This document shows positions 3,963 through 39,912 of a stretch of DNA of 53,446 nucleotides, one piece after another. A program made the translations under genes and the position numbers. The DNA is from a virus, in IMG/VR virus record IMGVR_UViG_3300013285_000579, positions 1-53,446 of that record; one strand, 5' to 3'. Within the stretch, counting starts at the first letter, position 1; each line of letters opens with the position of its first letter. The notes under the pieces are model-generated. The model was not told where the DNA came from. It did not search any database and worked only from the letters and a program-made list of their open reading frames with translations.

Positions 3963-3971
3963 TCCCAACAA

Positions 3972-3977
3972 TAAATA
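3972..3977 (+). promoter_or_regulatory. TAAATA box 4 nt before an ATG
   Basis: AATAAATA (3970-3977), then CAGC, then the ATG at 3982, with no Shine-Dalgarno sequence. Same geometry as at 1991, 13346 and 34513. Confidence 0.35.
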
Positions 3978-3981
3978 CAGC

Positions 3982-4605
3982 ATGGCAATCACATATAAAG
4001 TCCTTGGACAAATCAACCCTGTAGCTACTATTGCTACAACATTGTACACTGTACCTGCTACTGTAAGTGCAGTAGTCAGCACCATCGTAATGTGCAATCA
4101 AGCTGCAACTGCGACTACATTTAGCTTGTCAATTAGACCAGCTGGCGCAACAGTTGATACAAAACACTACTTGAACTTCAACACCGCAATTGCAGCTAAC
4201 GATACGATTCCAATGACATTGGGATTAACACTAGCTCCAACCGATGTGTTGAATGCTACTTCAACATCGGGCAGTGTCAGCTTCAGTGCGTTCGGTGCAG
4301 AGAGCACACTATCAACTAGTGCAGCACCTATCATCACTAACTTGTATATAACTAACAGTAGCTATGTAACACAATCTGACACTGTACTGCCTCCCGCTGG
4401 TGGATATATTAAATTGATTGGCATGGGATTTATTGATGGCTGCTCAATCTACGTAGGTGGTGTTGCAGTCGCTACCACAGTGATAAGCAGTACTGAACTT
4501 CGTGCAGCACTATCCGCAAAGACAGTGGGGACATACTCGGTGATGATGTTCAATGCAAATGGTAGTGGTGCTATCTACTCCGCTGGTATTATTTATTCGG
4601 CATAA
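3982..4605 (+). CDS. Short adhesin: N-terminal virion domain plus IPT/TIG-like domain
   Basis: 207 residues. Residues 1-~108 (MAITYKVLGQINPVATIATT...) closely match the N-terminal domain of the preceding gene product. Residues ~115-205 match its IPT/TIG-like domain (GGYIKLIGMGF, then VGTYSVMMFNANGSGAIY). The protein stops where the larger relative continues into a putative-Ig domain and RCC1 propeller, so it reads as a propeller-less paralogue. A structural role, perhaps as an adaptor or alternative tip, is inferred from domain sharing and position. No Shine-Dalgarno is visible. Confidence 0.7.
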   Translation: MAITYKVLGQINPVATIATTLYTVPATVSAVVSTIVMCNQAATATTFSLSIRPAGATVDTKHYLNFNTAIAANDTIPMTLGLTLAPTDVLNATSTSGSVSFSAFGAESTLSTSAAPIITNLYITNSSYVTQSDTVLPPAGGYIKLIGMGFIDGCSIYVGGVAVATTVISSTELRAALSAKTVGTYSVMMFNANGSGAIYSAGIIYSA

Positions 4606-4612
4606 TTTAACC

Positions 4613-4942
4613 ATGGCAACAACATATAAAATCTTAGGGCAAGTTAACACAGCAGTTGACTCATTGACTACATTGTATTCAGTACCTGTAGCAACCAGCA
4701 CCATTCTCAGTACTCTTGCAGTGTGCAATCAAAACAATACTGCTGCTAACTTTAAGATAGCAATCAGACCAGCTGGCGCAACTATTGACCTTAAACATTA
4801 CATCAACTACAACACCACTGTGCCAGCTAACGATACAGTGACACTGGCAATAGGTATAACATTGGCTGCAACAGATGTAATCACAGTCAGTGCCAGTTCT
4901 ACTACAGTTAGTTTTCTGGCGTTTGGTAGTGAGATTTCATAA
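4613..4942 (+). CDS. Single-domain virion protein, N-terminal adhesin module only
   Basis: 109 residues from the ATG at 4613 (MATTYKILGQVNTAVDSL). A longer in-frame extension upstream is rejected because this ATG aligns with the starts of the two preceding paralogues. The whole protein equals the ~105-residue N-terminal domain of those paralogues (VCNQNNTAANFKIAIRPAGA, then a LKHYINYNT motif). It ends in TAATG, overlapping the start of the next gene. That gene carries the remaining modules, so the pair looks like a two-gene version of the 2001-3962 adhesin with translational coupling. Confidence 0.65.
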   Translation: MATTYKILGQVNTAVDSLTTLYSVPVATSTILSTLAVCNQNNTAANFKIAIRPAGATIDLKHYINYNTTVPANDTVTLAIGITLAATDVITVSASSTTVSFLAFGSEIS

Positions 4943-6654
4943 TGTCTGTAAAGACCAGTAGCAAGCAATCGCTAGCAAGATTCAGCACTTTAGCCAGTGC
5001 ATCAATTATTACTCCGGCGGCCGCAGCGGCGGCCGCAGCCACTGTTCCGGTTATAAGTCAGGTTTATATCACCGATGGCAGCTATGCTACTATATCACAG
5101 ACTGCACTCAGCCCAACAGGTGGATATCTTAAAATTATCGGATCATCTTTTCAAGCTGGATCAGTTGTTTATGTAGGTGGACAAACTGCAACTGTATTAG
5201 CAACTACATTTGTAAGTAGCACTGAAATTCGTGTGCAAGTTTCAGCATTGACGGTTGGTAACTATTCAGTGATGGTTTTCAACACTAACAGTAGTGGCGC
5301 AATTTATGCCAATGGTATTGTGGTGTCATCGGTCCCGAGTTGGACTACTAGTAGTTATACTTTTGCTGGCAATGCGGTCAACACTCAATTGACTGCAACC
5401 GGCGATGTGCCGTTGACCTATAGCTTGCAAGGTGGAAGTTCGTTGCCCGTTGGTGTCACATTAAGTTCAACTGGATTGATATCGGGTACTGCTATCGGTA
5501 TTTCAACTAATACAGTCGTAACTTTTACAGTTGTTGTAAGTGACTTACAGCTACAACCAACTCCGCAGTTGATCAATTTAACTATGACCTTCTATGTTGG
5601 TAAGTTATATACTTGGGGGTATAACGGTGATGGGCGGCTGGGATTAAACAACACTATTAATACATCCAGCCCGGTACAAGTTGGTTCATTGACCGACTGG
5701 ACAGCAACGGTTAATCTGCTTGCCGCAATTAAAACAGACGGAACTCTCTGGACTCGCGGGCCAAATACGTACGGTCAACTTGGCCAAGGTGATACTCTTA
5801 GTAGATCCAGCCCGGTACAAGTTGGTACATTAACCTCGTGGTTACGAGTTGCCGGTGGCTACAATATGGGCGCAATTAAAACAGACAGAACACTGTGGGT
5901 ATGGGGCGCCAACTTTCAAGGTGCCTTAGGTCTAGGCGACACTATACATAGATCAAGTCCGGTGCAAGTTGGTGCATTAACTAATTGGGCAACTGTTCGA
6001 GTTGGGGTTTCTTGTATTTTAGCAACCAAAACGGACGGAACTCTTTGGACTTGGGGTCAGAATTACCGCGGCACCCTTGGGCTTGGCGACTCGTTACCGC
6101 GATCTAGTCCTGTTCAGGTGGGTACATTAACAAATTGGTTGTCTCTGGCCGCCGGCCATCAAGTAGCCGCAATTAAAACGGACGGAACTCTTTGGACTTG
6201 GGGCTTCAACTCATATGGTCAATTGGGATTAGGTGACATTATTGACCGATCTAGTCCAATACAAGTTGGCTTGTTAACTAATTGGAAATCGTTAGATAAT
6301 AGTGACGGCGGCCGGCTTGAATTTTTAGCAATCAAAACCGACAACACGCTGTGGGCTTGGGGATATAATACTTCTGTCCTTGCCGAGGGCAAACTAGGAT
6401 TAGGCGACACGGTTAGCAGGTCAAGTCCAACTCAAGTTGGTGCACTGACTAATTGGTCAACTGTTACTCACGGTTCGAAAGCAGTGGTTGCAATTAAAAC
6501 AAACGGTACACTTTGGTCCTGGGGAATCGGTCAATACGGCGAGCTTGGGCTAGGTAGTACAACTAACATCTCAAGTCCACAACAAGTTGGTTCATCAACC
6601 ACGTGGGTAGCTGTCAGTTCCAGTAACCTAGGTTGTAGTGCAATCTCCAGCTAA
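4942..6654 (+). CDS. Tail adhesin: IPT/TIG, putative-Ig and seven RCC1 repeats
   Basis: 570 residues. A short N-terminal stub with a polyalanine stretch (residues ~25-33) replaces the N-terminal virion domain. It is followed by an IPT/TIG-like domain (~38-135), a putative-Ig domain (~140-215, LPVGVTLSSTGLISGTA) and seven RCC1 repeats (~220-570). Most repeats have a W-x-WG motif; the second has WTRG and the sixth carries an insertion (NTSVLAEGKLGLG). The ATG overlaps the stop of the upstream gene (TAATG), suggesting coupled translation of separate anchor and propeller polypeptides. DNA segments are identical to parts of the 2001-3962 gene. Receptor binding is inferred. Confidence 0.75.
   Translation: MSVKTSSKQSLARFSTLASASIITPAAAAAAAATVPVISQVYITDGSYATISQTALSPTGGYLKIIGSSFQAGSVVYVGGQTATVLATTFVSSTEIRVQVSALTVGNYSVMVFNTNSSGAIYANGIVVSSVPSWTTSSYTFAGNAVNTQLTATGDVPLTYSLQGGSSLPVGVTLSSTGLISGTAIGISTNTVVTFTVVVSDLQLQPTPQLINLTMTFYVGKLYTWGYNGDGRLGLNNTINTSSPVQVGSLTDWTATVNLLAAIKTDGTLWTRGPNTYGQLGQGDTLSRSSPVQVGTLTSWLRVAGGYNMGAIKTDRTLWVWGANFQGALGLGDTIHRSSPVQVGALTNWATVRVGVSCILATKTDGTLWTWGQNYRGTLGLGDSLPRSSPVQVGTLTNWLSLAAGHQVAAIKTDGTLWTWGFNSYGQLGLGDIIDRSSPIQVGLLTNWKSLDNSDGGRLEFLAIKTDNTLWAWGYNTSVLAEGKLGLGDTVSRSSPTQVGALTNWSTVTHGSKAVVAIKTNGTLWSWGIGQYGELGLGSTTNISSPQQVGSSTTWVAVSSSNLGCSAISS
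5791..5825 (+). repeat. 35-nt exact repeat, copy 2 (RCC1 region)
   Basis: Identical to 3561-3595. A shorter exact repeat, AAAACGGACGGAACTCTTTG, also occurs three times, at 3651, 6028 and 6175. Confidence 0.8.
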
Positions 6655-13355: not shown

Positions 13356-15128
13356 ATGCAAAAAACACTTCACTTCTTATCAGGCATTCCCCGTTCGGGT
13401 TCAACGGTACTTGCTGCAATTCTTAATCAAAACCCACTTACTCATGTCAGCACTACATCGGGTCTAGTTCACGCACTAGACGGACTAGCTAATACTTGGC
13501 ACAGTGCTGGCCTACTGAACGAAACAGACGCAGACCGTTCTAAACTAGCTGCTACTATGCGTGGTACAATCGATGCATTTTACAGCGATATTGATAAACC
13601 AGTTGTTATTGACAAATCACGAGGCTGGCCTATTGCTCAAATTATGCAAGCAATGGCACAAGTGCTACAACATGCACCTAAAATCATCGCTACAGTACGC
13701 TCAGTTCCTGACTGTGCTGCAAGTTTTATTCGTGTAGCAAAGCCTGTTGACTTAGATGAATTTATGCAATCAGGTCAACTAATGGATCACTTGAAAGCAG
13801 CATACATCTCGTTGCAAAATGGATACAACTTTGCTCCTGAATGTTTTCTGTTCGTAGAGTACGACGACCTAGTGCGCGATCCTAAAACTGAACTCGCAAG
13901 AGTACATGCTTTCTTGGGACTACCTGACTTTGAATATGACTTCAATAACATTGACGGTTCTTCTGTGTCAGAAGATGATGAGAACTTGCATGGTCATGCT
14001 GGTATGCATGATGTTAAACCCGTATTAGAACGTCAACACAATCAAGACCCAAGAGAACTATTGAAGCATCATTATCCTACGTTCTGTCAAGGTGAGTTCT
14101 GGCTAGAGCATCCACGCACTATACCTGAAATACATGACCTTGATTTGCAGCTAGCAGCTAGCACTACGGGTGACTTTGCTGAAGGTTGGCGCCTGACACA
14201 AAAGCTAGAAGCTGAAGAACCAAACAATCATCGTGCAGCATACAATCGTGGTTGGTATCTATTGCGTCAGGGACAGATTCAAAAAGGTTATCAGTTGATG
14301 GATCGCGGCCGACTATCCGGCGTGTTCGGCAATAGTAAGCCTGATGTTCCTACTCCGCACTGGGACGGCAAAAGCAAGGGCATTGTATTATTGTACTTAG
14401 AAGGTGGATTAGGAGATCAGATTCATCAGATCCGATATGCAAAGAATATTGCAGATCGTGGATGTAAAGTCATTGTAGCTTGCTCGGGCCAACTGGCTTC
14501 GTTATTCTTTAATGCAGAAGGTGTATCTAGTGTGATCCAACATGAAGCAGTGTTCGGTATCTATCATGACTTTTGGGTAGCTGGCATGAGCGCAGTTGTA
14601 CCACTTGGATTTGAATTAGCAGATATCAGCGGCAAGCCGTATCTAGCTAAGCCTAATGTGATAAAAGGGCACAAGAAACGAATCGGTCTACGTTGGCAGG
14701 GCAACAGTCAGTTCGAACATGAGCATCACAAAAAGTTCCCGTTCTACTTAATGTTTGACGCAGTAAAAGACGCTGATGTTGAGTTTATTAGTTTGCAACG
14801 TGATGAAGGTGCAGAAGCATGTCCGTACTGGGTTAAGCAAGTCCCGCTCAACTCATGGGATGACACTCGCGCAGCTATCGCAAGTTGCGACCTAGTGATT
14901 AGCTCTTGTACATCAGTTAGTCACTTAGCTGGCGCAATGGGCGTTGATACTTGGGTAGTGACTCCAATCATGCCCTACTTCATGTATGCACTAGAGGGCG
15001 AAAAGACCCCATACTATGCCAGTTTCACACTATTTAGACAAGAATCGTTTGGTGACTGGACTATACCTTTTATCAAAATGAAAGAACGCTTGTCAATTAG
15101 TTACCCTAAACTGAAACTTTTAGGATAA
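13356..15128 (+). CDS. Sulfotransferase fused to a glycosyltransferase-like domain
   Basis: 590 residues from the ATG at 13356 (a TTG one codon earlier is less likely). Residues ~5-260 are a PAPS-type sulfotransferase: the 5'-phosphosulfate loop is GIPRSGST (10-17), and the 3'-phosphate region is IIATVRSVPDCAASF (~115-130). A TPR-like linker (~270-325, RAAYNRGWYLLRQGQIQKGY) leads to a C-terminal half resembling TPR-linked GT9/heptosyltransferase-like enzymes: LYLEGGLGDQIHQIRYA, IGLRWQGNSQFEHEHHKKFP, then LVISSCTSVSHLAGAMG. Predicted to transfer sulfate and sugar to a glycan or glycoprotein. It lies among tail adhesin genes, so tail-protein or host-surface modification is plausible. No Shine-Dalgarno is visible. 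Confidence 0.75.
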   Translation: MQKTLHFLSGIPRSGSTVLAAILNQNPLTHVSTTSGLVHALDGLANTWHSAGLLNETDADRSKLAATMRGTIDAFYSDIDKPVVIDKSRGWPIAQIMQAMAQVLQHAPKIIATVRSVPDCAASFIRVAKPVDLDEFMQSGQLMDHLKAAYISLQNGYNFAPECFLFVEYDDLVRDPKTELARVHAFLGLPDFEYDFNNIDGSSVSEDDENLHGHAGMHDVKPVLERQHNQDPRELLKHHYPTFCQGEFWLEHPRTIPEIHDLDLQLAASTTGDFAEGWRLTQKLEAEEPNNHRAAYNRGWYLLRQGQIQKGYQLMDRGRLSGVFGNSKPDVPTPHWDGKSKGIVLLYLEGGLGDQIHQIRYAKNIADRGCKVIVACSGQLASLFFNAEGVSSVIQHEAVFGIYHDFWVAGMSAVVPLGFELADISGKPYLAKPNVIKGHKKRIGLRWQGNSQFEHEHHKKFPFYLMFDAVKDADVEFISLQRDEGAEACPYWVKQVPLNSWDDTRAAIASCDLVISSCTSVSHLAGAMGVDTWVVTPIMPYFMYALEGEKTPYYASFTLFRQESFGDWTIPFIKMKERLSISYPKLKLLG

Positions 15129-15136
15129 ATTACTAA

Positions 15137-15179
15137 ACCCAGCTTGATAAATACTGTATGAAGAATTTATCAACTGGGT
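15137..15179 (+). promoter_or_regulatory. 15-bp hairpin enclosing a TAAATA box and an 11-codon upstream ORF start
   Basis: ACCCAG (15137-15142) and TTGATAAAT (15144-15152) pair with ATTTATCAA (15165-15173) and CTGGGT (15174-15179), leaving one bulged C and a 12-nt loop. The loop contains ATG 15158, four bases after TAAATA (15148-15153). That ATG opens an 11-codon frame (15158-15193) whose TGA overlaps the start of the next gene. Confidence 0.5.
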
Positions 15180-15185
15180 ATTATT

Positions 15186-16004
15186 ATGGCTGAAACAAAC
15201 ACAAAAGGCTGTCTAACAGCAGGGGAAGTTTACGAACGACAAGTTGCTGGGGTGTGGCCTACTACTACCGCTGGTCAAGCTGCGTACACCACTCCGGGTA
15301 CGTTCTCGTGGACAGCACCGGCCGGGGTTACTAGTGTTTCGGTTGTTGCTGTCGGTGGCGGCGGATCTGGCAACGGCAGTGCCGGTGGAGCCGGTGCCGG
15401 CCTAGGATGGAAAAACAATATTACAGTTATCCCGGGTCAATCCTACACGGTAGTAGTAGGCGTAGCTGGAACCCGCAGCGCAAGTGTCGCAACCGCAATG
15501 GCAGGGGGAGATAGTTATTTTATCGATGCAACTACAGTAAAAGGTGGTGGCGGCGCCGGTATTACGACCGGTGGTACCTACGTCGGCACCGGTGGCGGCA
15601 ATGGAGGCGCAAGTTCTCTTGAGAATGCCGGCGTTGCTTATGGCGCTGGCGGCGGCGCCGGCGGCTATATTGGTAACGGCGGCGCCGGCGGATATAGTAG
15701 TGCAGGTTTAACTGGTACCGGCGGCGGCGGTGGCGGGGGTGCTGCCGGTGGAGGCAGCGGCGCGGGTGGCGGCGTTGGCATATTAGGTCAAGGGGCAAAT
15801 GGCGCCGGTGGTACCTACTCCGGTGGCGGCGGCTTCGGCGGAAGCGGTGGAGTTCAGGGTAGCTCTCCCTACCCGGGCGGTAATTACGGTGGAGGAAGTG
15901 GTGCGGCGAATGTCGTTAACCCAGGGGCCGGTGGACCAGGTGCAGTTCGAATTATCTGGGGCACTAGCCGTGCCTTCCCGAGTATACTTACCGCTAATTT
16001 ATAA
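15186..16004 (+). CDS. Glycine-rich tail adhesin
   Basis: 272 residues from the ATG at 15186. The N-terminus (CLTAGEVYERQVAGVWPTT) is the anchor motif also present in the proteins starting at 10779 and 17243. A short beta segment (FSWTAPAGVTSVSVVAVG) then leads into a polyglycine domain (~55-245) closing with GAVRIIWG, matching the first Gly-rich domain of the 10779 gene product. The sequence is GGC/GGT-rich. Its leader holds a strong hairpin. It is probably an alternative receptor-binding tip; no enzymatic motif is visible. Confidence 0.65.
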   Translation: MAETNTKGCLTAGEVYERQVAGVWPTTTAGQAAYTTPGTFSWTAPAGVTSVSVVAVGGGGSGNGSAGGAGAGLGWKNNITVIPGQSYTVVVGVAGTRSASVATAMAGGDSYFIDATTVKGGGGAGITTGGTYVGTGGGNGGASSLENAGVAYGAGGGAGGYIGNGGAGGYSSAGLTGTGGGGGGGAAGGGSGAGGGVGILGQGANGAGGTYSGGGGFGGSGGVQGSSPYPGGNYGGGSGAANVVNPGAGGPGAVRIIWGTSRAFPSILTANL

Positions 16005-16018
16005 TAGAAATATTTCTA
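16005..16018. repeat. 14-bp perfect palindrome
   Basis: TAGAAATATTTCTA starts one base after the stop of the upstream gene and ends 17 nt before a late-type box. It could be a protein-binding site or the tip of a weak hairpin. Confidence 0.4.
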
Positions 16019-16035
16019 AATAACGCAACACAAAG

Positions 16036-16043
16036 AATAAATA
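16036..16043 (+). promoter_or_regulatory. T4-late-like box AATAAATA
   Basis: Seven of eight bases match TATAAATA, 30 nt upstream of the ATG at 16074, which has a Shine-Dalgarno AAAGGAAA. Confidence 0.45.
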
Positions 16044-16073
16044 CATAACAGCATTTTATTAAAGGAAAACAAA

Positions 16074-16460
16074 ATGGCACTATTCGTACAAATTATCGAC
16101 GGCGAAGTTAAGCAAGTTTGGGACTCTACCCCGCCGGCCGGCGAAGCAGGTTGGGTTGACGCAGTTGAAGTTCGCGCTCCTATTCAATCAGGACGTCAGG
16201 GCTACACTGCACATCGTTATGATTTGACAACTACTCCAGTTCAAATCATCTGGGATACATATGATATCACAGTCGAACAGCGTAAAGCAGATATGTCAGC
16301 TAATGCAGGATTCGCATTCCAACAAGTTCTACAAGAACAGGCTCGCAATCCAGAATCTTACAGTGCAGAGCAAGTGGAAGTAGCACGTTTGGCAATGGTT
16401 GCTAAACAAGATGCAATTGCCGCAGCTACGACACACGACGAGCTAGACGCATTAGTCTAA
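16074..16460 (+). CDS. Small tail-fibre-associated protein (unknown)
   Basis: 128 residues with a good ribosome site (AAAGGAAAAC). The N-terminal half (MALFVQIIDGEVKQVWDSTP) looks like the short beta domain found in proteins encoded beside phage fibres. The C-terminal half (~75-128) is helical (ITVEQRKADMSANAGFAFQQ onward) and resembles the tail-fibre-assembly/DUF4376 type. A chaperone or fibre accessory role is inferred. Its last base is the first base of the next gene's ATG (TAATG), so it is coupled to a sulfotransferase gene. Confidence 0.5.
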   Translation: MALFVQIIDGEVKQVWDSTPPAGEAGWVDAVEVRAPIQSGRQGYTAHRYDLTTTPVQIIWDTYDITVEQRKADMSANAGFAFQQVLQEQARNPESYSAEQVEVARLAMVAKQDAIAAATTHDELDALV

Positions 16461-17239
16461 TGATTTACTTCTTAAGTGGCTTGCCACGATCGGGCTCAAC
16501 ATTGTTGGGTTCGATATTGAATCAAAACCCAGATGTTTATGTTTCACCAACAAGTCCTTTATTGGACTTGTTGTGCCTACAGAACGAAGCATTGAACAGG
16601 GTTAAAGAACAATATACATTTGATGATGTAAAGCAATCGGAATCGATTTACAACGCATTGCCAAAGGCTTTTTACCAGCATATAACCAAACCCCACATCA
16701 TTGACAAGCACAGAGCTTGGGCACGAAATGTTATGCCAGCACAGATGCACATTAGTAGTGACCCCAAAGTCATTTGCACCTATCGGCCTGTTGCTGAAGT
16801 TGTGGTTAGTTTTCTAAAGCTAGTTAACAAAGACCCCAACAACTTTATTGATGCTGCATTGCGAGAAAAGCGTATAGCTATTACTACTGAGAATCGTGCA
16901 AAAGAGTTGTGGGAAGGCTATATCAGCGATCCATGGCAAAGTCTGCAAATAGGATTAGAGAACTACAAACAGAACTTGTATTTCGTTTCATACAGTGAGT
17001 TAATTGCCGACCCTACCATTACTATTGACGGTGTCTATGACTTTCTTGGCATAGAGCGGTATCAGCATGAATTTGACAACATCAGCAACAGTTGCGGCGA
17101 ATCAAAAGACGCCGCATGGGGACTCAAAGACCTACATACTATCAGACCTAAACTAGCTAAAACTAGTGATGATCCTGTAACCGTGTTAGGTGAGAATTTG
17201 TGTAAATACTTTAATCAATTTGATATTAAACGAGTATAA
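16460..17239 (+). CDS. Sulfotransferase family protein
   Basis: 259 residues. The 5'-phosphosulfate-binding loop is GLPRSGST (~7-14), followed by SILNQNPDVYVSPTSP, nearly the same layout as the first sulfotransferase at 13356. The 3'-phosphate motif region is VICTYRPVAEVVVSFLK (~108-124), and a YFVSYSELIADP segment (~173-185) is typical of the family. Predicted to transfer sulfate from PAPS to an acceptor hydroxyl, probably on a glycan. The start overlaps the upstream stop by one base, and an RCC1 adhesin follows after 3 nt, so it is embedded in the adhesin operon. Confidence 0.75.
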   Translation: MIYFLSGLPRSGSTLLGSILNQNPDVYVSPTSPLLDLLCLQNEALNRVKEQYTFDDVKQSESIYNALPKAFYQHITKPHIIDKHRAWARNVMPAQMHISSDPKVICTYRPVAEVVVSFLKLVNKDPNNFIDAALREKRIAITTENRAKELWEGYISDPWQSLQIGLENYKQNLYFVSYSELIADPTITIDGVYDFLGIERYQHEFDNISNSCGESKDAAWGLKDLHTIRPKLAKTSDDPVTVLGENLCKYFNQFDIKRV

Positions 17240-17242
17240 CAC

Positions 17243-18385
17243 ATGACCAACAAGACCTCTCTCACATTAACGCAAGCGTACAGCAAGCAATTAAGCGGCA
17301 CTTGGCCTACTACTTGGTATGTCCCGCCGCAGTATTTATGGGCCTGGGGTACTAATGCTTATGGTAGGCTGGGACTAGGTGATACTACTAATCGTTCAAG
17401 TCCGGTGCAAGTTGGCGCACTTGGCACCTGGTCAGTTATTTCAGCTGGGGTTCTAGTAACGGCCGCAATTAAAAAAGATGGCACATTGTGGTGCTGGGGT
17501 TCTAGTAACGGACAAGGTGCAGTAGGTGACGGTACAACCTCACCTAGATCCAGCCCAACTCAAGTAGGTGCATTGACCAGCTGGACGTTAGTTGCAGCAT
17601 GCGGTCAGAGCGTTAATGCGATTAAAAATAACGGAACCCTTTGGGCCTGGGGATGGAATGGTTATGGTATGCTAGGCGACGGGACAGTGATTAGTAAATC
17701 CAACCCCGTGCAAGTGGGTATATTGACTAACTGGCTGACGATAGCATCCGGTCGATATCAAGTTATTGCAACAAAAACAGATAATACACTTTGGATTTGG
17801 GGTAAGAACAACGTCGGACAGCTAGGCCTAGGTGACACTATATCCCGATCTAGTCCAGTACAAGTAGGTGCACTGACTACCTGGAAATCAGGTTTTGCTG
17901 GTGGCCAAAATTCAATGGTGATCAAAACAGATGGGACACTATGGGCTTGGGGTATTAACACCTGGGGTCAACTAGGGCTAGGTGATACCATCAGCCGGTC
18001 CAGCCCAGTGCAAGTGGGTCTACTAACTACATGGCAGACGGCCGACGGCAACGGAGAGACTGCTATAGTTGCATCCCGAACAGATGGTACTGTTTGGACT
18101 TGGGGCAGAAACCTCGGCGGTGGACTTGGTCTAGGTGACACTATTAGTCGTTCTAGTCCGGTACAAGTTGGCTCGTTGACTAACTGGCTGTTAGTTTCTA
18201 GTAGTGGGTATTCAGCAGTAGCAATCAAAACAGACGGTACCCTTTGGACCTGGGGTAGCAACTACTATGGCCAACTAGGTCAAGGTAATACTATTGACCG
18301 ATCTAGCCCGGCACAAGTTGGGGCTGCAGCCGCGTGGCAGTCGGTGTCAGGCGGATATAACTGGTGTGTCGCAATCTCCAACTAA
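17243..18385 (+). CDS. Anchor-motif RCC1 tail adhesin
   Basis: 380 residues. The N-terminus (LTLTQAYSKQLSGTWPTTW) carries the anchor motif of the two glycine-rich adhesins (10779, 15186). It joins directly to seven RCC1 repeats (~28-380), each with a W-x-WG core such as LWIWGKNNVGQLGLG. The second and third repeats lack the full LGLGD. The protein combines the anchor of one adhesin family with the propeller of the other (2001, 4942), direct evidence of module exchange. Receptor binding is inferred. Confidence 0.75.
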   Translation: MTNKTSLTLTQAYSKQLSGTWPTTWYVPPQYLWAWGTNAYGRLGLGDTTNRSSPVQVGALGTWSVISAGVLVTAAIKKDGTLWCWGSSNGQGAVGDGTTSPRSSPTQVGALTSWTLVAACGQSVNAIKNNGTLWAWGWNGYGMLGDGTVISKSNPVQVGILTNWLTIASGRYQVIATKTDNTLWIWGKNNVGQLGLGDTISRSSPVQVGALTTWKSGFAGGQNSMVIKTDGTLWAWGINTWGQLGLGDTISRSSPVQVGLLTTWQTADGNGETAIVASRTDGTVWTWGRNLGGGLGLGDTISRSSPVQVGSLTNWLLVSSSGYSAVAIKTDGTLWTWGSNYYGQLGQGNTIDRSSPAQVGAAAAWQSVSGGYNWCVAISN

Positions 18386-18400
18386 AATAAATTTCAACAT

Positions 18401-18422
18401 CAGGTAACTTAGTAAATACTTG
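18401..18422 (+). promoter_or_regulatory. Hairpin/TAAATA element, second copy
   Basis: 19 of 22 bases match 13334-13355. The stem CAGGTA/TACTTG keeps pairing through a G-U pair. TAAATA is at 18413-18418 and the ATG at 18426 is 7 nt beyond. Confidence 0.45.
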
Positions 18423-18425
18423 ACA

Positions 18426-18992
18426 ATGAAATTAAACTTAGGCTGCGGGTACAATCAGTTACCTGGATATATTAATGTAGACCATGACCCAATCTGTAAA
18501 CCAGATGTAGTTGCTGATCTGGAAGCAACTCTTCCATTCGAAGATAACTCGGTAGATGAGATTTATCTGCACCACGTGTTAGAACATCTGGGTCAGACAA
18601 CCAAAACATACTTCAGTGTATGGAAAGAGTTCTATAGAATTCTCAAAGATCAAGGTGTAATCAGAATCATAGTGCCGCATTGGCAACATGAAAACTTTCA
18701 TCACGATCCTACGCATGTACGCAAAGTAACACCCGTTGGAGTAGATATGTTCAGTCAAGCACGCAACATGAACACTATCCGCACGGGTGGCAATGAGACT
18801 ACATTGGGTCTTCAACTTGGAATTGACATTGGTGTAACTGAAGTTGGTTATGATCTAATGCCGGACTTTGAAAAGATGATGCAAGGCCAGTCATCCCATG
18901 TAATAGAGCATGAAGCGAACAAGTATAACAATACTTGCTATCAAGTTCAAATCAATGCAAAAGCACACAAGCCCCCAAGGAGCACACTATGA
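18426..18992 (+). CDS. SAM-dependent methyltransferase
   Basis: 188 residues from the ATG at 18426; a TTG two codons upstream is rejected. Class I SAM fold: motif I LNLGCGYNQLPGYINVD (~4-20), acidic motif II INVDHDP, then VDEIYLHHVLEHLG (~45-58) and a YRILKDQGVIRIIVPHW motif (~72-90). This matches small methyltransferases in glycan clusters that act on sugars or polyketides. The acceptor is unknown. The stop overlaps the next ATG (ATGA), and the gene opens a run of modification genes after the adhesins. Confidence 0.75.
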   Translation: MKLNLGCGYNQLPGYINVDHDPICKPDVVADLEATLPFEDNSVDEIYLHHVLEHLGQTTKTYFSVWKEFYRILKDQGVIRIIVPHWQHENFHHDPTHVRKVTPVGVDMFSQARNMNTIRTGGNETTLGLQLGIDIGVTEVGYDLMPDFEKMMQGQSSHVIEHEANKYNNTCYQVQINAKAHKPPRSTL

Positions 18993-19615
18993 TTTTTGAC
19001 AAGAAAGTTATTATCATTGATGACTTCTACACTGATCCATATGCAGTACGTCAAATAGCATTAAATGCAGAGTATGAAGATGTACCGGGTATCAAGAATT
19101 ATCCAGGTAATAATTCAGTTAAGTCATTCTGGAGTGATGAACTAACTGAACTAGTGTGTAGAGCGACAGGTGAGAACATTGAACCAGAACCTAGTTCCAG
19201 TTGTGGTCATTTCAGATACACTCCTGCTGCTGCTTCCTCTAGGCAAATCATTCACTTTGACCCTAAGCCAACTCAGTGTTGGGCTGGTGTAGCATATCTC
19301 AGTTTACCCGAACACTGTATCCCTGATGCCGGTACTAAGATATACTCACACAAGCGCACTGGTATTAGCACCGCACCCAAAGATCATATTGAATCAAGTA
19401 TCATTGGTGTGCGTACTGTAGAAGATATGAAAACTTTCTTCGAAACTGAAGGACTAGATGAATCACTATGGCAACCCGAATTAACAGTTGAAATCAAATT
19501 CAACCGATTAGTACTGTTCAGACCTTGGTTATGGCACGGAATCTCTAATCACTTCGGAACTGATGTTACCGACAGCAGATTAACTCAGCTAATATTTCTG
19601 CAACCTAAAGGATAA
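18989..19615 (+). CDS. Putative 2OG-Fe(II) oxygenase (DUF6445-like)
   Basis: 208 residues from the ATG at 18989, chosen because it overlaps the upstream stop (ATGA) and starts MIFDKKVIIIDDFYTDP. Likely iron ligands are H and D in IIHFDPKPTQCWAGVAYLS (~90-108) and the distal H in LVLFRPWLWHGISNHFG (~170-187), with a downstream Arg (DSRLTQLIFL) able to bind 2-oxoglutarate. The layout fits prolyl-hydroxylase-like small oxygenases. Substrate unknown; hydroxylation of a sugar, protein or lipid is possible. Confidence 0.6.
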   Translation: MIFDKKVIIIDDFYTDPYAVRQIALNAEYEDVPGIKNYPGNNSVKSFWSDELTELVCRATGENIEPEPSSSCGHFRYTPAAASSRQIIHFDPKPTQCWAGVAYLSLPEHCIPDAGTKIYSHKRTGISTAPKDHIESSIIGVRTVEDMKTFFETEGLDESLWQPELTVEIKFNRLVLFRPWLWHGISNHFGTDVTDSRLTQLIFLQPKG

Positions 19616-19619
19616 AAAC

Positions 19620-20249
19620 ATGAAAAAAATTCTCATCATGGGCCTACCCGGGGCCGGCAAAACATTCTTAGCAAGCGAGGTTAAGAAGCAACTACAAGAG
19701 AATGGTTGTACTGTGGATTGGTTCAATGCCGATGTTATTAGGCAGCAGAATGATGACTGGGACTTTAGCCCAGAAGGTCGAGTTCGACAGTCACTCAGAA
19801 TGAAAGAGCTAGCAAAGAATTCTACTGCCGATTATGTTATATGTGACTTTGTTGCCCCACTCATTGAAATGAGAACCAACTTTGCCGCAGACTGGACTAT
19901 CTGGGTAGACACTATTAATGAAGGTCGATATGCAGACACTAACAGTGCATTTGTCTCACCGACTACCTATGACTTCAAAATAACCGAGCAAGATGCAGTA
20001 AAGTGGGCTAAGTTCATCGTTGAACATATGTTCGCAAAGAAAGCTACAAGTGATGAATCAATTATTCGCAGTTTGGTGAAAGCAGTTAGTTGGCGCATTA
20101 CTGGGACATTGTCTATCTTTGCCATCAGCTATGTAGTCGCGGGCGATATCGTAGTATCCAGCACAATCGCATTTATTCAATTAATCTGGAACACCGGGCT
20201 ATACTTAGTGCATGAAAGAATTTGGAATAGGGTAACCTGGGGCAAATAG
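19620..20249 (+). CDS. APS-kinase-like P-loop kinase fused to a DUF2061 membrane domain
   Basis: 209 residues. The Walker A motif is GLPGAGKT (8-15). The segment VDWFNADVIRQQ (~32-43) aligns with the APS-kinase LDGDNVR region, although DGD is replaced by NAD. YVICDFVAPLIEMR (~78-91) and IWVDTINEGRYADTN (~98-112) match the kinase core. From ~145 a DUF2061 domain follows: SLVKAVSWRITGTLSIFAISYVVAGD, then LVHERIWNRVTWGK, with two membrane segments. APS kinase makes PAPS, the donor for the sulfotransferases encoded nearby. The fusion would tether the kinase to the membrane. Phosphorylation of another substrate cannot be excluded. Confidence 0.65.
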   Translation: MKKILIMGLPGAGKTFLASEVKKQLQENGCTVDWFNADVIRQQNDDWDFSPEGRVRQSLRMKELAKNSTADYVICDFVAPLIEMRTNFAADWTIWVDTINEGRYADTNSAFVSPTTYDFKITEQDAVKWAKFIVEHMFAKKATSDESIIRSLVKAVSWRITGTLSIFAISYVVAGDIVVSSTIAFIQLIWNTGLYLVHERIWNRVTWGK

Positions 20250-20253
20250 CAAC

Positions 20254-20282
20254 TTGCATTCAGTGGTTAACTATGTTATGAT
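20254..20282 (+). promoter_or_regulatory. Possible sigma70 promoter ending at an ATG
   Basis: TTGCAT (20254-20259), a 17-nt spacer, then TATGAT (20277-20282). A start 7-8 nt downstream would fall on the ATG at 20290, making a leaderless message. Confidence 0.3.
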
Positions 20283-21006
20283 ATCGTCAATGGACAATAC
20301 ACTTAACTTATTTTATTCACGCGAAGCCCAAATTGAGAATGCATACATCATTACGGTAAAAGGTAATGAGTCATCCGAAAAATACTCTGCCCGATGCAGA
20401 AACTCATGCGACCAAGTGGGTATGAAGTACAAAGTTTGGGATGCATTTGACGGTACTAGGGGTCCGATCACTACACCGGATCAATGCATAGATGATTCGT
20501 TCATGCGCTTACTCAAAGTAACAGACCACTATCTTACCCGAGGGGAAGTTGCTTGCGCATTAAGTCACATCAGTCTATGGGTTCATTGTGCGAAGATTGA
20601 CAAGCCTATTATCATCTTAGAACATGACAGTATCATGGTTCAACGAATTGAAGCATTGAACACATATAATTCAATTGTATATCTAGGTGGCAGTGAATGG
20701 GCAGAGCAACGTTGGCCTATGTATCACGTCCCTCCTTTTGCAAGTGAAGGCCCTAACTACTTGTTTATCTGTCGCGCACACGCCTATGCAATTGATCCTG
20801 TGGTTGCTAAGAATCTACTTGCCCATGTGTTGAAGATGGGCATTCACGCCCCACTAGATATCATTATGAAAGCTGACTTGTTCAATATCTCGCATCAGGG
20901 CTTGTTTGCTTATGATAAGAATATCGATCTTGTTAATGACACAACTATCAAGTCTCGTCCTACAGCAGGCAGAACAACTGACCGTAACGACAACCTATCG
21001 ACTTAA
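20278..21006 (+). CDS. GT25-like glycosyltransferase
   Basis: 242 residues from the ATG at 20278; the ATG at 20290 is equally possible, and neither has a Shine-Dalgarno. The family pattern is visible in order: NAYIITVKGNESSEKYSARC, YKVWDAFDG, TRGEVACALSHISLWVHC and PIIILEHDSIMV (the acidic EHD cluster). These match the glycosyltransferase 25 (LPS biosynthesis) family, in which the E/D-x-D region binds metal and UDP-sugar. The C-terminal part is short. It probably adds a hexose to a glycan. A methyltransferase gene follows after one base. Confidence 0.7.
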   Translation: MISSMDNTLNLFYSREAQIENAYIITVKGNESSEKYSARCRNSCDQVGMKYKVWDAFDGTRGPITTPDQCIDDSFMRLLKVTDHYLTRGEVACALSHISLWVHCAKIDKPIIILEHDSIMVQRIEALNTYNSIVYLGGSEWAEQRWPMYHVPPFASEGPNYLFICRAHAYAIDPVVAKNLLAHVLKMGIHAPLDIIMKADLFNISHQGLFAYDKNIDLVNDTTIKSRPTAGRTTDRNDNLST

Positions 21007-22104: not shown

Positions 22105-23760
22105 ATGAACATTAACGTAGTTAAACGTAACGGGGAAATTGTTCCCCTCGATATTTCGAAAATACAAAGGCAGGTAGCACACGGGTGCAGGGGTATTGAT
22201 AACGTCAGTCCTAGTATGATTGAAATCAAGGCTCAGATCGAGGTACGCGATGGAATGAGTACAAAAACCATCGATGAACTACTATTAAAAGCAATGGTTA
22301 ACCTGATCGATGAGAGTGAAAACAGCGACATTAACAATGTGAATTATCAGTATGTAGCAGGCAGGCAGAAGGTCAGTATGCTACGTAAAGAGGTATACGG
22401 TACATATGATCCTCCCTCACTGTATGATATCGTAGTCACTAATATCGCAGCGGGTATGTACACCACTGCCCTACTTGAGTGGTACACCAAAGAAGAATGG
22501 GATATCATTAACCTGTTTCTTGACCACAGCAAGGACGAAAATTACACTTACGCAGCTATCGCTCAATTAACCGAAAAGTACTTAGTGCAAAACCGTGCTA
22601 CTGGTCAAATCTTTGAGAGCCCACAGATTCGGTATGCAATCGCAGCCGCCACTGCCTTCCACGCAGAACCAAAAGACAAGAGATTGAAGTATGTCAAAGA
22701 GTATTACGAATGCGCAAGTGATGGTCAGTTTACTCTTGCTACCCCTGTTCTCGCTGGCCTTGGTACTACTACTAAGCAGTTTTCTAGTTGCGTACTTATC
22801 TCTAGCGATGATACACTTGACTCTATTTTCGCCTCGGGTGAAATGATGGCCAAGTATGCTAGCAAACGTGCTGGCATTGGGTTAGAGATTGGTCGCATTC
22901 GCCCTCTTGGCGCAGCAATTCGTAACGGTGAAATCAAACACACGGGTATGATTCCTTTTCTTAAGAAATGGTTCTCTGACTTGCGTAGTTGCAGTCAAGG
23001 TGGCATTCGCAATGCGTCATGCACCGTTACATTCCCGGTATGGCACTACCAGTTCGAAGACCTCATAGTACTAAAGAACAATCAAGGCACCGAAGAAACT
23101 CGCGTTCGTCAAATGGACTACAGTGTTGTAGTCAACAAGATGTTCTGGAATCGTTATCGCAACAATGAAAACATCACCCTGTTCGATCCGCATGAAGTGC
23201 CTGATCTGTATGAAGCATACTACCGAGACAGTGATGAGTTTACTAAGTTGTACGCATCGTATGAAGCTAGAAACGATATCAAGAAGAAAGTCCTGCCCGC
23301 AGTAGAAATCTTCAAGAACGGTATTCTAAAAGAACGCACCGACACCGGTCGCATCTATCTAGTGAATATCGACAATGTTATCAATCAAGGTCCGTTCGAT
23401 ACTAAAGTAGATCCAATCTATCAATCTAATTTATGTCTTACCGGTGATACTACGATTCAGATTATGGATACTAATAAAACTATTCACTCAATCTCTCTTG
23501 AGGATTTTGTCAATAAATTTGATGCTGGTTATATGTCAAATATAAAAGTTAGAAGTTCAAATATCTTAACTGGTGAAGTAACTTGGAATGCAGTGAGTAA
23601 CGCCGCTAAAACAGCAACAGTCACTGAATTAATTGAAATCGAAGATGAATCTGGTAAAATTATTAGATGTACATTGGATCATCAGATATATACTACAAAT
23701 CGTGGTTATGTTAGAGCCGGCGACTTAGTAGAAACTGACGAGTTATGTGTTGAAATTTGA
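22105..23760 (+). CDS. nrdA: NrdA N-terminal part fused to a split-intein N-half
   Basis: 551 residues. Residues 1-~90 are an ATP-cone (VVKRNGEIVPLDISKIQRQV). Residues ~150-443 are the class Ia large-subunit barrel, including ATPVLAGLGTTTKQFSSCVL (the active-site Cys equivalent to E. coli C225) and TGRIYLVNIDNVINQGPFD. At residue 444, after QSNL, the enzyme sequence changes to an intein: block A CLTGDTTIQI (444-453) and block B with T-x-x-H (T523, H526, in RCTLDHQIYTTNRGY). The frame stops after DLVETDELCVEI. The missing catalytic region is supplied by the product starting at 24725. Trans-splicing is needed for activity. Confidence 0.9.
   Translation: MNINVVKRNGEIVPLDISKIQRQVAHGCRGIDNVSPSMIEIKAQIEVRDGMSTKTIDELLLKAMVNLIDESENSDINNVNYQYVAGRQKVSMLRKEVYGTYDPPSLYDIVVTNIAAGMYTTALLEWYTKEEWDIINLFLDHSKDENYTYAAIAQLTEKYLVQNRATGQIFESPQIRYAIAAATAFHAEPKDKRLKYVKEYYECASDGQFTLATPVLAGLGTTTKQFSSCVLISSDDTLDSIFASGEMMAKYASKRAGIGLEIGRIRPLGAAIRNGEIKHTGMIPFLKKWFSDLRSCSQGGIRNASCTVTFPVWHYQFEDLIVLKNNQGTEETRVRQMDYSVVVNKMFWNRYRNNENITLFDPHEVPDLYEAYYRDSDEFTKLYASYEARNDIKKKVLPAVEIFKNGILKERTDTGRIYLVNIDNVINQGPFDTKVDPIYQSNLCLTGDTTIQIMDTNKTIHSISLEDFVNKFDAGYMSNIKVRSSNILTGEVTWNAVSNAAKTATVTELIEIEDESGKIIRCTLDHQIYTTNRGYVRAGDLVETDELCVEI
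23434..23757 (+). other. N-intein of a split NrdA intein
   Basis: 108 residues beginning with the nucleophilic Cys at 23434-23436. Blocks A and B are present and C-terminal blocks F and G are absent; they are in the gene at 24725. The DNA becomes visibly more AT-rich here than in the flanking nrdA coding sequence. Confidence 0.88.
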
Positions 23761-23768
23761 TTACCAAG

Positions 23769-23776
23769 AATAAATA
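23769..23776 (+). promoter_or_regulatory. T4-late-like box AATAAATA before the HNH gene
   Basis: It lies in the 32-nt gap between the N-intein stop and the HNH start, followed by TAAGGAAAT as a Shine-Dalgarno. It could give the endonuclease its own transcript. Confidence 0.4.
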
Positions 23777-23792
23777 CATATAAGGAAATTAT

Positions 23793-24728
23793 ATGTATAC
23801 AGAACTTTACGAGAAATTAATTGATAATGCAAGAAAAGAAAACAGAATGAGAGATCAGGGAACTTACTATGAACGACACCATATTGTTCCTGATTTTTTA
23901 TTTAAGAATAGAAAAAGAACAGGTCCTAAAGGAAATCTAGATGGTAATCCTGACAGCGTAGGAAACATCGTCTTACTGACTTTCTCTGAGCATTTAATGG
24001 CTCATTATTATTTGTATGAGATATATAAAGAAACTAGATATGAATACTCTGCTGGTTCTGCCCTACAATTCTTTTTTGTTAAGGCAACTAGTAATCACAA
24101 AAGACAGGTTAATTTATCTGAGATTGATGGGAAGTTTCTTAAGGACATGGACCATTTGAGGCTACTTGGTAACGAGTGTATTAGTAAAGCACGAAAAGGA
24201 AAGATGCCAGTAGTTAATGCTATTACTAGGGAAAAACAAGGATCGGTGCGCATAGACCACCCAAATGTATTGTCGGGTGAATGGATTCATCATAGCAAAG
24301 GTATCCCTGGAAAATCCGGTAGAGATATGACTGGTACTAAAAATGTCAACTTCAAAGAACTTACTCAGGATCGAAGAGAAAGAATGTGGAAATGTGTTTC
24401 AGTATCATGTCAAGAAGGATATCTAAAATTAAATTTATTACAAGAGTCTATGAAAAGAGAATTTATTGAATTTAAGAAAATTTCGTTAGCTTGGATTAGT
24501 AATAAATTTGGTTCTTTGAAAAACTTAATTGAAGAAACTAATAAAAATATGAATCTTACCATTAAGTACGATCCATATCATAGAAGTATATCGCACCGAA
24601 AGATTGCAGAGGAAAATTCAGCAAAACATCGATGGTATAATAACGGAATAACTAACGTCAGAGTAACAGATGAAAAAGAATTTTGTAAAGAAAATCCAGA
24701 ATTTGTCCAAGGAAGAATAAAAATATGA
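23793..24728 (+). CDS. Free-standing HNH homing endonuclease between split-intein halves
   Basis: 311 residues with its own Shine-Dalgarno (TAAGGAAAT). The HNH core is YYERHHIVPDFLFKNR (~27-42) followed by GNIVLLTFSEHLMAHYYLYE (~66-85), the H-H-I-V-P...N-I-V-L-L-T...H...A-H pattern of phage homing endonucleases. The central KMPVVNAITREKQGSVRIDH and VLSGEWIHHSKG and the late HRWYNNGITNVRVTDE (~270-285) look like the modular DNA-binding segments of such enzymes. The gene is AT-rich. Its stop overlaps the ATG of the C-half (ATGA). It probably cuts intein-less nrdA alleles and spreads the element by homing. Confidence 0.85.
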   Translation: MYTELYEKLIDNARKENRMRDQGTYYERHHIVPDFLFKNRKRTGPKGNLDGNPDSVGNIVLLTFSEHLMAHYYLYEIYKETRYEYSAGSALQFFFVKATSNHKRQVNLSEIDGKFLKDMDHLRLLGNECISKARKGKMPVVNAITREKQGSVRIDHPNVLSGEWIHHSKGIPGKSGRDMTGTKNVNFKELTQDRRERMWKCVSVSCQEGYLKLNLLQESMKREFIEFKKISLAWISNKFGSLKNLIEETNKNMNLTIKYDPYHRSISHRKIAEENSAKHRWYNNGITNVRVTDEKEFCKENPEFVQGRIKI

Positions 24729-24826
24729 TAAAAATTAAAAAAATTAAAGTAGAGCCTACTGACGTATATGATATCACTGTACCAGAAACCGAGTGTTTTT
24801 TTGCCAACGATATTTTAGTTCATAAC
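24725..24826 (+). other. C-intein of the split NrdA intein
   Basis: 34 residues ending HN immediately before the TGC codon at 24827-24829. With 23434-23757 it makes a complete, endonuclease-free splicing domain. Confidence 0.88.
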
Positions 24827-25828
24827 TGCCAAGAGATTCTATTACCTACTAAGCCTTTCCAACGTATTGAAGATGAGTCCGGCCGCATTGCCCTCTGCAC
24901 ACTTGGCTCAATCAATTGGGGTTCATTCAAGTCACCACAAGAAATACGTAAGTGCTGTAGAGTTCTTGTTCGTAGCCTGAGTAATCTATTAAGCTACCAA
25001 GACTTTCTATCTATTCAAAGCAAGTTGGCTAACGATGACTTTGAACCACTGGGTGTTGGTATTACTAACCTAGCTTACTGGCATGCACGTAAAGGATTTA
25101 AGTACGGTGAACCAGAAGCACTTGCAGAAGTTAAGCGTTGGATGGAACATCAGGCATACTATCTAACTGAAACTTCGGTTGAGTTAGCACAAGAGCGCGG
25201 TGCTTGCAAGCGTAGCGAATTCACTTACTACGGTAAGGGTGTGTTTCCTTGGGAACGTAGGAACAAGGGAGTAGACGAACTAACCAGTTTCGCTCCAAGT
25301 ATTAATCTAGACTGGGAAGGCTTGCGCCAAAAGCTATTGCAATATGGCATCAGAAATGCTACACTAATGGCTGTTGCACCTGTTGAAAGTTCTAGTGTTG
25401 TGTTGAACAGCACGAATGGTATTGAAATGCCAATGGAACTTATCAGTGTCAAAGAAAGCAAAGCGGGTAGCTTTGTTCAAGTTGTTCCCGAGTACAAGCG
25501 TTTGAAGAATCGTTATCAAATGATGTGGGAGCAGAAGGACTGTGTAGAGTACTTGAAAACTAGTGCGGTGTTAGCTGCATATGTGGATCAGTCATTGTCT
25601 ACCAACACATTCTACAATCCTGCATTCTTTGATCAAGGCAAAGTACCCGGTACACTGATTGCCAAGAACTTGATGCTTGCATACAAGTGGGGCTTGAAGT
25701 CAATGTATTATAGCCTAATTAACAAAGTGGGCAGTAAAGCTGCATTACAAGAGGAAAGCAACATCATTGCTTTCGTTAAGCAAGAACCAATTGAAGAAGA
25801 AGAATACTGTGAAAGCTGCGTCCTATGA
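24725..25828 (+). CDS. nrdA: Split-intein C-half fused to the NrdA C-terminal part
   Basis: 367 residues. Residues 1-34 are the C-intein: block F YDITVPETECFFAN and block G ILVHN, ending in the splice-site Asn34. Cys35 is both the +1 extein residue and the equivalent of E. coli NrdA C439, the thiyl-radical cysteine, in CQEILLPTKP; Glu37 matches E441. RIALCTLGSINWG holds the C462 equivalent. MYYSLI holds the radical-transfer tyrosine pair (Y730/Y731 equivalents), and the tail CESCVL carries the redox-shuttle cysteines. An AAGGA-like site lies about 13 nt upstream of the ATG. The stop overlaps the nrdB ATG. Confidence 0.9.
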   Translation: MIKIKKIKVEPTDVYDITVPETECFFANDILVHNCQEILLPTKPFQRIEDESGRIALCTLGSINWGSFKSPQEIRKCCRVLVRSLSNLLSYQDFLSIQSKLANDDFEPLGVGITNLAYWHARKGFKYGEPEALAEVKRWMEHQAYYLTETSVELAQERGACKRSEFTYYGKGVFPWERRNKGVDELTSFAPSINLDWEGLRQKLLQYGIRNATLMAVAPVESSSVVLNSTNGIEMPMELISVKESKAGSFVQVVPEYKRLKNRYQMMWEQKDCVEYLKTSAVLAAYVDQSLSTNTFYNPAFFDQGKVPGTLIAKNLMLAYKWGLKSMYYSLINKVGSKAALQEESNIIAFVKQEPIEEEEYCESCVL

Positions 25829-39512: not shown

Positions 39513-39912
39513 TTCTACCCCAGCTGATCCGATTCCATATTCGTTCATGTAGATAGTGAATGACTAAGAACGCCAGGTTGTTCCAGATTGTCCAACTGAG
39601 TGCGTCAGTACTAGATAACCCAAGCGTCATCCCAATGACAAACAGTGCAATGAAACTCATGATACGCCAGCTAACTGTTTTAACCATGGTACGTTTATGT
39701 GTATCTGATGTTCCGCTCTTAAGCCATTTGATACTATTCCATACCTTCTCATGTATATAGAACAATGCAAATCCTATAGTAAGTGTGATAACCAAAAACT
39801 TAAGTCCAAAGCCGGCGCCGTAGCTTAATACTATACTAAGAATGAACACTGTTAATGCCGCTGTTAGTCTATAGCTAAGAGTCTTTACTAGTGTGCGGGT
39901 ATTACTGTCCAT
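39496..39912 (-). CDS. Tandem DUF2061 membrane protein
   Basis: 138 residues with a Shine-Dalgarno AGGAAC. Two DUF2061 copies: LVKTLSYRLTAALTVFILS...FYIHEKVWNSIKW (~8-65) and MVKTVSWRIMSFIALFVIG...YLHERIWNRISWG (~75-134). Each copy starts with a VKT-x-S-[YW]-R signature and ends with an IHE/LHE-[RK]-[IV]-WN motif, with two membrane segments per copy. The same domain is fused to the APS-kinase-like protein at 19620. Function is unknown; it may anchor or transport in sulfate or glycan metabolism. Confidence 0.8.
   Translation of the reverse strand: MDSNTRTLVKTLSYRLTAALTVFILSIVLSYGAGFGLKFLVITLTIGFALFYIHEKVWNSIKWLKSGTSDTHKRTMVKTVSWRIMSFIALFVIGMTLGLSSTDALSWTIWNNLAFLVIHYLHERIWNRISWGRNVSVQ

Follow-up and report, generated by a model that had tools for sequence, protein, structure and literature searches.

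The stretch of viral DNA analysed here, referred to as the window, is IMG/VR virus record IMGVR_UViG_3300013285_000579 at its full length of 53,446 bases (42.2% GC), and may be a fragment. Between positions 13,356 and 20,249 it encodes two predicted sulfotransferases and a kinase related to adenosine 5′-phosphosulfate (APS) kinase, the enzyme that makes 3′-phosphoadenosine 5′-phosphosulfate (PAPS). Our proposal is that these genes make up a phage sulfation module in which the kinase supplies the PAPS, and we put the probability of this reading, which rests on sequence and gene order, at about 0.7. The genes and domains concerned are as follows.

13356..15128, + strand: sulfotransferase domain (residues 7-192) with a long C-terminal extension; ORF given from 13353/13356; Sulfotransfer_3 6.3e-15
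16460..17239, + strand: single-domain sulfotransferase, 259 residues; Sulfotransfer_3 1.3e-14, Sulfotransfer_1 2.2e-13
19620..20249, + strand: kinase-DUF2061 fusion, 209 residues; APS_kinase 43.1 bits, DUF2061 59.6 bits
19629..19880, + strand: APS-kinase-like region, residues 4-87, as matched by Pfam APS_kinase PF01583
20073..20228, + strand: DUF2061 part of the kinase; Pfam match at residues 152-203, inside a pair of long helices in the predicted model (residues 126-174 and 177-204)

The sulfotransferases and the kinase

The two sulfotransferases score 56.5 bits (13356) and 55.4 bits (16460) against Sulfotransfer_3, for which the curated cut-off is 27, and both match phrog_27463 (3.2e-47 and 8.8e-60, respectively). 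A PRSGST loop and a downstream R...S are present in each, and P9-R10-S11-G12, R109 and S117 are invariant in seven of seven aligned members; we take the 5′ PRSG loop and the 3′ Arg...Ser to be the PAPS-binding positions. Family and motif support the assignment of both open reading frames (ORFs) as putative PAPS-dependent sulfotransferases, in agreement with an earlier reading made from the letters alone (the sequence-only reading). When the seven-member profile was compared with PDB, the best matches were protein-tyrosine sulfotransferases (TPSTs; 8.5e-9), whose catalytic Glu lies in a GEE motif. This motif is not kept in the phage profile, where it aligns with Pro-Thr, and we therefore do not call the window proteins tyrosine sulfotransferases.

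The C-terminal 340 residues of the 13356-15128 product matched TPR_17 in Pfam at 0.011, below cut-off, and a PDB search with them gave nothing significant (best E value 0.3); a glycosyltransferase-like C terminus, proposed from motifs, was dropped on these grounds. The sequence-only reading had also counted a degenerate third sulfotransferase, ORF 45390-45980 (196 residues). We reject this candidate, which had no Pfam or PHROG match at E 0.1 and no match to a sulfotransferase hidden Markov model (HMM) at E 1 with filters off.

That the kinase is a relative of APS kinase had been recognised from the letters, with its C-terminal DUF2061 overlooked. Its PF01583 score of 43.1 bits compares with a cut-off of 21.1, and in a Foldseek comparison of its predicted model (predicted local distance difference test, pLDDT, 93.4) with PDB, ranks 1-42 were all APS kinase or PAPS synthase chains, with shikimate kinase at rank 43. 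When a profile of 18 kinase domains was compared with PDB, 23 of the 25 top rows were chains of APS-kinase type (best 4.9e-15); the remaining two were very long chains matched over ~30-40 residues. For a SAR11 relative in which the kinase is fused to a nucleotidyltransferase (NTase), VIA-align covered only the kinase part of the model (residues 1-138); the first 29 rows were APS kinases or APS-kinase-like domains (Z 15.9-18.3, root-mean-square deviation 1.6-2.6), and gluconate kinase came next at Z 15.8, level with the last APS kinase. Excerpts of a study of Mycobacterium tuberculosis CysC (PMC4373884) describe contacts to APS through Asp480, Arg483, Phe492, Arg497, Phe576 and Lys562, and a P-loop Lys456. 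The aligned window counterparts of Asp480, Arg483, Phe492, Arg497 and Lys456 are D38, R41, F49, R54 and K14; among 18 aligned kinase rows, D38, R41, F49 and K14 are invariant and R54 is kept in at least 90%. The counterpart of Phe576 may be Y104, at a place where the alignment is weak.

A second virus contig (G150; loci L082 and L248) is syntenic with the window module. Identity between the two is 93.7% for the first sulfotransferase (13356) and 88.4% for the second (16460), and only 58.6% at the kinase slot, where the syntenic contig has a fused kinase-NTase gene and, overlapping its end, a gene for DUF2061. Because the slots are syntenic in this second contig, chance is excluded for both sulfotransferases and the kinase. 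We read the kinase slot as the site of a replacement that would have preserved the function, the window being without the NTase. Over its whole length the 13356 protein is 94% identical to its counterpart in L082 and 79% identical to that in L089.

Linkage was examined in the loci of viral kinase relatives, for which the best 80 of 253 were used, by scanning the collected loci with four HMMs (kinase, NTase, sulfotransferase and DUF2061), each built from few members. A sulfotransferase was present in 60 of the 80 loci, upstream and on the same strand in 60/60, and its frequency was 52/58, 48/50 and 33/34 in loci with at least 3, 5 and 8 kb of upstream sequence, respectively. After clustering of the kinases at 80% identity, nine of ten clusters with at least 3 kb upstream had a sulfotransferase. 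Among 80 control loci, fetched by the virion gene at 7090, two held a sulfotransferase, one of them the syntenic contig, and none held a kinase.

The module also includes three further genes.

18426..18992, + strand: methyltransferase-like gene; Methyltransf_11 9.8e-9; L082 counterpart 80.5% identical
18986..19615, + strand: DUF6445 / 2OG-Fe oxygenase-like gene, directly 5′ of the kinase; DUF6445 6.3e-13; L082 counterpart 91.3% identical
20254..21006, + strand: glycosyltransferase family 25 (GT25) gene, directly 3′ of the kinase; Glyco_transf_25 1.2e-13; L082 counterpart 83.8% identical

The DUF6445 and kinase genes are separate neighbours in the window, unlike in L085 (2883-3809) and L128 (10761-11663), where a DUF6445/2OG-oxygenase-like domain is apparently fused N-terminal to the kinase domain, directly after a sulfotransferase. 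Upstream of the module lie virion, tail-fibre-like, RCC1-repeat and glycine-rich proteins; several RCC1-repeat proteins occur among the virion and adhesin genes (2001-6654 and 17243-18385), and their number and position vary across L082, L248 and L089. Further downstream, at 22105-25828, a ribonucleotide reductase gene looks split into parts at 22105-23760 and 24725-25828, with intein-like sequence at the end of the former and the start of the latter and an HNH-type endonuclease-like ORF (23793-24728) between them; in L082 the enzyme is a single uninterrupted ORF of 776 residues. We take the split form to resemble the split-intein "fractured gene" arrangement.

The kinase-NTase family in viruses and SAR11

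In most viral relatives of the kinase, a NadM-like HxGH nucleotidyltransferase of ~115 residues is fused to the kinase or adjoins it, usually behind it. Other arrangements occur, with a separate NTase gene followed by kinase-DUF2061 in L002 and the orders kinase, DUF2061, NTase in L173 and kinase, NTase, DUF2061 in L175. All 22 NTase members match CTP_transf_like, and HxGH is invariant in 22/22; it conforms to the HxxH nucleotide-binding motif, as does NadM, and is thus unspecific. The QxRN (RNP) loop, given as a feature of Sat in excerpts of PMC3779200, is absent from the NTase family, which has GRxQP at that place, and two NTase members fail the NadM equivalog TIGR01527 (23.4 and 23.3 against 181.2 bits). 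Between matched blocks, the NTase lacks ~25 residues of NadM 1f9a (profile 68-89 against chain 64-110), and would therefore suit a small acceptor such as sulfate. A GRD-like motif in YGRDVGY was left unused as an ATP-sulfurylase signature, as it aligns with the GY block of NadM and its D is G in most aligned SAR11 members. The GC content spans 0.32-0.55 in the 80 viral loci and 0.30-0.34 in five SAR11 loci, the window standing at 42%; many of these viruses are therefore probably not SAR11 phages.

A genome scan gave 13 cellular relatives, ten from Pelagibacteraceae/Pelagibacter, two from alphaproteobacterial single cells and one from a Euryarchaeota metagenome-assembled genome. Five of them (L177, L178, L179, L186 and L187) stand beside apparent aprB and aprA genes, confirmed in L177 by TIGR02060 (aprB, 190 bits) and TIGR02061 (aprA, 994 bits). 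In five of five SAR11 loci read, the order is CADD/PqqC-like gene, NTase, aprM, aprB, aprA, with aprM named by position and the names CADD/PqqC-like, aprM and aprB resting on likeness to the L177 proteins. According to excerpts of PMC3779200, that place is held in Allochromatium vinosum by sat, which is co-transcribed with aprMBA.

A draw of 147 genomes from the SAR11 family, their completeness not stated, contained the NTase in 78, aprA in 67 and both in 58 (Fisher test 1.8e-14, uncorrected for kinship). The two genes share a contig in 40 genomes and lie less than 10 kb apart in 31, on the same strand in 31/31; in 17 of these 31 cases no strong match to the kinase is present, among them G038, in which the contig ends inside the kinase gene and leaves only a fragment. 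Known ATP sulfurylases are rare in the draw (PF01747 in 5/147, CysD in 8/147). To look for the NTase beyond SAR11, a phylum draw of 398 genomes was scanned at E 1e-12, and two had it: G006, and G520, in which it stands beside an AMP-ligase-like gene (named by eye), with no match to the sulfotransferase HMM in 19 kb. The excerpts of PMC5069961 report that Pelagibacter has AprBA and lacks cysDNCHIJ and sat, yet one of its tables shows most strains with cysC and cysQ; SAR11 AprBA, described as under strong purifying selection, is read there and in excerpts of PMC12636525 as serving sulfite detoxification. Because sat and cysDN are reported absent, the fate of APS, the product of AprBA, is unexplained in this account (PMC5069961, excerpts).

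At other SAR11 loci the fused kinase-NTase is found away from apr, mostly amid surface-glycan genes. The 81 neighbour proteins of 13 such loci include glycosyltransferases, SIS proteins, NeuB, epimerases and three Sulfotransfer_1 proteins, the last lying within three genes of the kinase-NTase in L237, L240 and L241 and directly adjoining it in L240 and L241. A CDP-glycerol phosphotransferase-like neighbour occurs at one locus.

Sulfotransferase or kinase genes are present in seven of ten DUF2061-seeded viral loci. DUF2061 was considered as a sulfur-specific gene and set aside, being present in 95 of the 147 SAR11 genomes; none was noticed near aprA when two SAR11 lists were compared by eye, the overlap not being computed. 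We read DUF2061 solely as a membrane hairpin, which would give the kinase a role at the membrane. Far from the module, a 138-residue ORF on the minus strand (39496-39912) reads as two DUF2061 domains in tandem (HMM 9.9e-23), and L174 appears similar to it.

Readings of the module

Domains, predicted folds, synteny and linkage are observations, from which we infer catalysis, substrates, direction and the role at the membrane. The neighbourhoods of kinase and NTase have APS or PAPS in common, with APS reductase in SAR11 and with enzymes that consume PAPS in phages and at a few glycan loci of SAR11. Given these neighbourhoods and the APS-kinase fold, we favour PAPS synthesis as the role of the kinase and ATP sulfurylase as that of the NTase. 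From sequence, we lean somewhat towards the NadM-like NTase being a non-canonical ATP sulfurylase. With the same slight preference we suggest that in SAR11 it fills the place of the absent sat (NTase-aprMBA), which would close the oxidation of sulfite to sulfate, and that with the short-lid kinase it would constitute a minimal PAPS synthase in phages.

In the mechanism that we propose, two PAPS-dependent sulfotransferases would be encoded among virion and adhesin genes, and a short-lid APS-kinase-like enzyme, its DUF2061 hairpin serving as a membrane tie, would phosphorylate APS to supply them with PAPS. The NTase of most relatives most probably converts ATP and sulfate to APS, and kinase and NTase together would form a compact non-canonical PAPS synthase, with which phages carrying both may sulfate virion or cell-surface parts independently of host sulfate activation. 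In the window the NTase may have been lost, or may be encoded off the contig; lacking it, this phage would depend on APS made by the host or by a gene in another part of its own genome. The sequence-only reading had likewise proposed a sulfation module, directed at tail proteins or host glycans: its two sulfotransferases and kinase stand by family, fold and linkage, ORF 45390 falls away, and the target cannot be told from sequence.

A number of observations weigh against this proposal. The window kinase fails the NCBIfam apsK equivalog (31.9 against 138.7 bits). In CysC, as described in excerpts of PMC4373884, a lid (552-581) holds Lys562 over the active site in contact with APS and ATP; most of this canonical lid is missing from the kinase alignments, as is any counterpart of Lys562. 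The 136 aligned residues of the SAR11 relative's model span 170 of CysC, and the profile match of the family to APS kinases ends ahead of the lid. The window kinase thus looks like an APS kinase, but falls outside membership on lid and NCBIfam score; the check proposed with the sequence-only reading, whether the kinase keeps APS-binding residues, comes out in favour for the core contact positions and against for most of the lid. The nearest sequences to the NTase are NMN adenylyltransferases (1f9a, 3.5e-10 in a PDB profile search), ATP-sulfurylase PF01747 is weakly matched by just two of 22 members (best E 4.6e-4), and the NTase HMM has no match in the 53 kb of the window (best E 0.72). The viral linkage counts, 60 of 80 among them, are not independent because the loci are related, and of 78 sulfotransferase-seeded viral loci only 13 contain the kinase, with the NTase in seven of these 13. 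Two isolated Stenotrophomonas phages encode the kinase-NTase, and their complete records gave no match to Sulfotransfer_3; in one, Bhz60 (L086:7559-8732), it directly follows an NADAR gene and precedes a DNA methyltransferase. Among SAR11 genomes with aprA, nine of 67 lack both NTase and Sat, and aprA is missing from 20 genomes that carry the NTase; since three aprA-positive genomes with Sat also carry the NTase, there is no clean complementarity between the two. Finally, at ten of the 13 SAR11 loci distant from apr, no gene up to three positions from the kinase-NTase matches Sulfotransfer_1.

Some of these observations would be expected if the product of the kinase-NTase were an NAD-type cofactor or a glycan unit, nucleotide-activated or phosphorylated, with a kinase and a nucleotidyltransferase combined as they are in other bifunctional sugar-activating enzymes. 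The sulfotransferases would then be nearby since all serve to decorate surface glycans. The nearness of the NTase to NadM, its uniform match to CTP_transf_like, the glycosyltransferase, NeuB, SIS and CDP-glycerol phosphotransferase-like neighbours in SAR11 and the NADAR neighbour in the Stenotrophomonas phage all fit. We nevertheless regard this explanation as unlikely: it leaves unexplained both the place of the NTase directly before aprMBA, on the same strand in every linked case, and the nearness of the kinase to APS kinases, and a bulky NMN-type acceptor fits less well with the ~25 residues missing relative to 1f9a. A still less probable alternative accepts a true APS kinase that serves the sulfotransferases, but gives the NTase a role other than ATP sulfurylase and makes the host the constant source of APS. 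The evidence is indeed stronger for the kinase than for the NTase, and sulfotransferase-kinase pairs without NTase exist, in the window and in six of the 13 sulfotransferase-seeded kinase loci (L119, L139, L147, L148, L150 and L151). In SAR11 the NTase stands without the kinase where sat would precede aprMBA, which speaks against it, as do the several orders and fusions in which kinase, NTase and DUF2061 are found. That the genes are unrelated, and that adhesin regions merely gather cargo, is very improbable given linkage of 48/50 against a background of 2/80, although other cargo (the methyltransferase, GT25 and DUF6445 genes) is present there too.

Significance and comparison with known systems

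In a phage sulfation module that includes a PAPS kinase, known parts are combined in a new way, and no paper joining these parts was found in the open-licence PMC literature, a coverage outside which most subscription journals lie. If the proposal is true, sulfation in phages is a system that can be moved as one unit, and the sulfation of virion or surface components represents a testable layer of phage-host recognition. The NTase family would then also resolve a question of SAR11 physiology, the fate of APS made by AprBA, and sulfite oxidation to sulfate would be closed in the ocean's most abundant bacteria. ATP-sulfurylase activity of the NTase, if borne out by assay, would exceed a new variant of known parts, and the small size of the proteins makes both the phage and the SAR11 questions directly testable.

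Among known enzymes, TPST1/2 are the best solved relatives of the phage sulfotransferases, whose profile is without GEE. The sulfotransferases of cyanophages S-SRM01 and S-SKS1 belong to the same family (44% and 34% identity); unlike the window, S-SRM01 has no kinase match in its 22-kb locus. The window kinase resembles APS kinase (CysC; the PAPSS1 kinase domain) in predicted fold, P-loop and five aligned contact residues, but its family differs in the mostly missing lid, the SAR11 relative being ~34 residues shorter over the aligned stretch (model 1-136 against 4rfv 443-612), in fusion to DUF2061 or NTase and in a score far below the NCBIfam threshold. Like the bifunctional PAPS synthases (PAPSS1/2; Aquifex SAT/APS kinase), most relatives pair an APS-kinase-like and an HxGH nucleotidyltransferase domain in one chain, although their NTase is small and NadM-like, in contrast to the large Sat domain, and the window member is without it. 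With NadM NMN adenylyltransferase, its best PDB match, the NTase has in common the GRxQPxHxGH and SxTxxR signatures; it differs in having ~25 residues fewer, scores far below cut-off, and apr and sulfotransferase contexts. As in the sat-aprMBA arrangement of Allochromatium vinosum (excerpts of PMC3779200), SAR11 has a nucleotidyltransferase gene directly 5′ of aprM-aprB-aprA, the gene at the place of sat being the NadM-like NTase instead of Sat.

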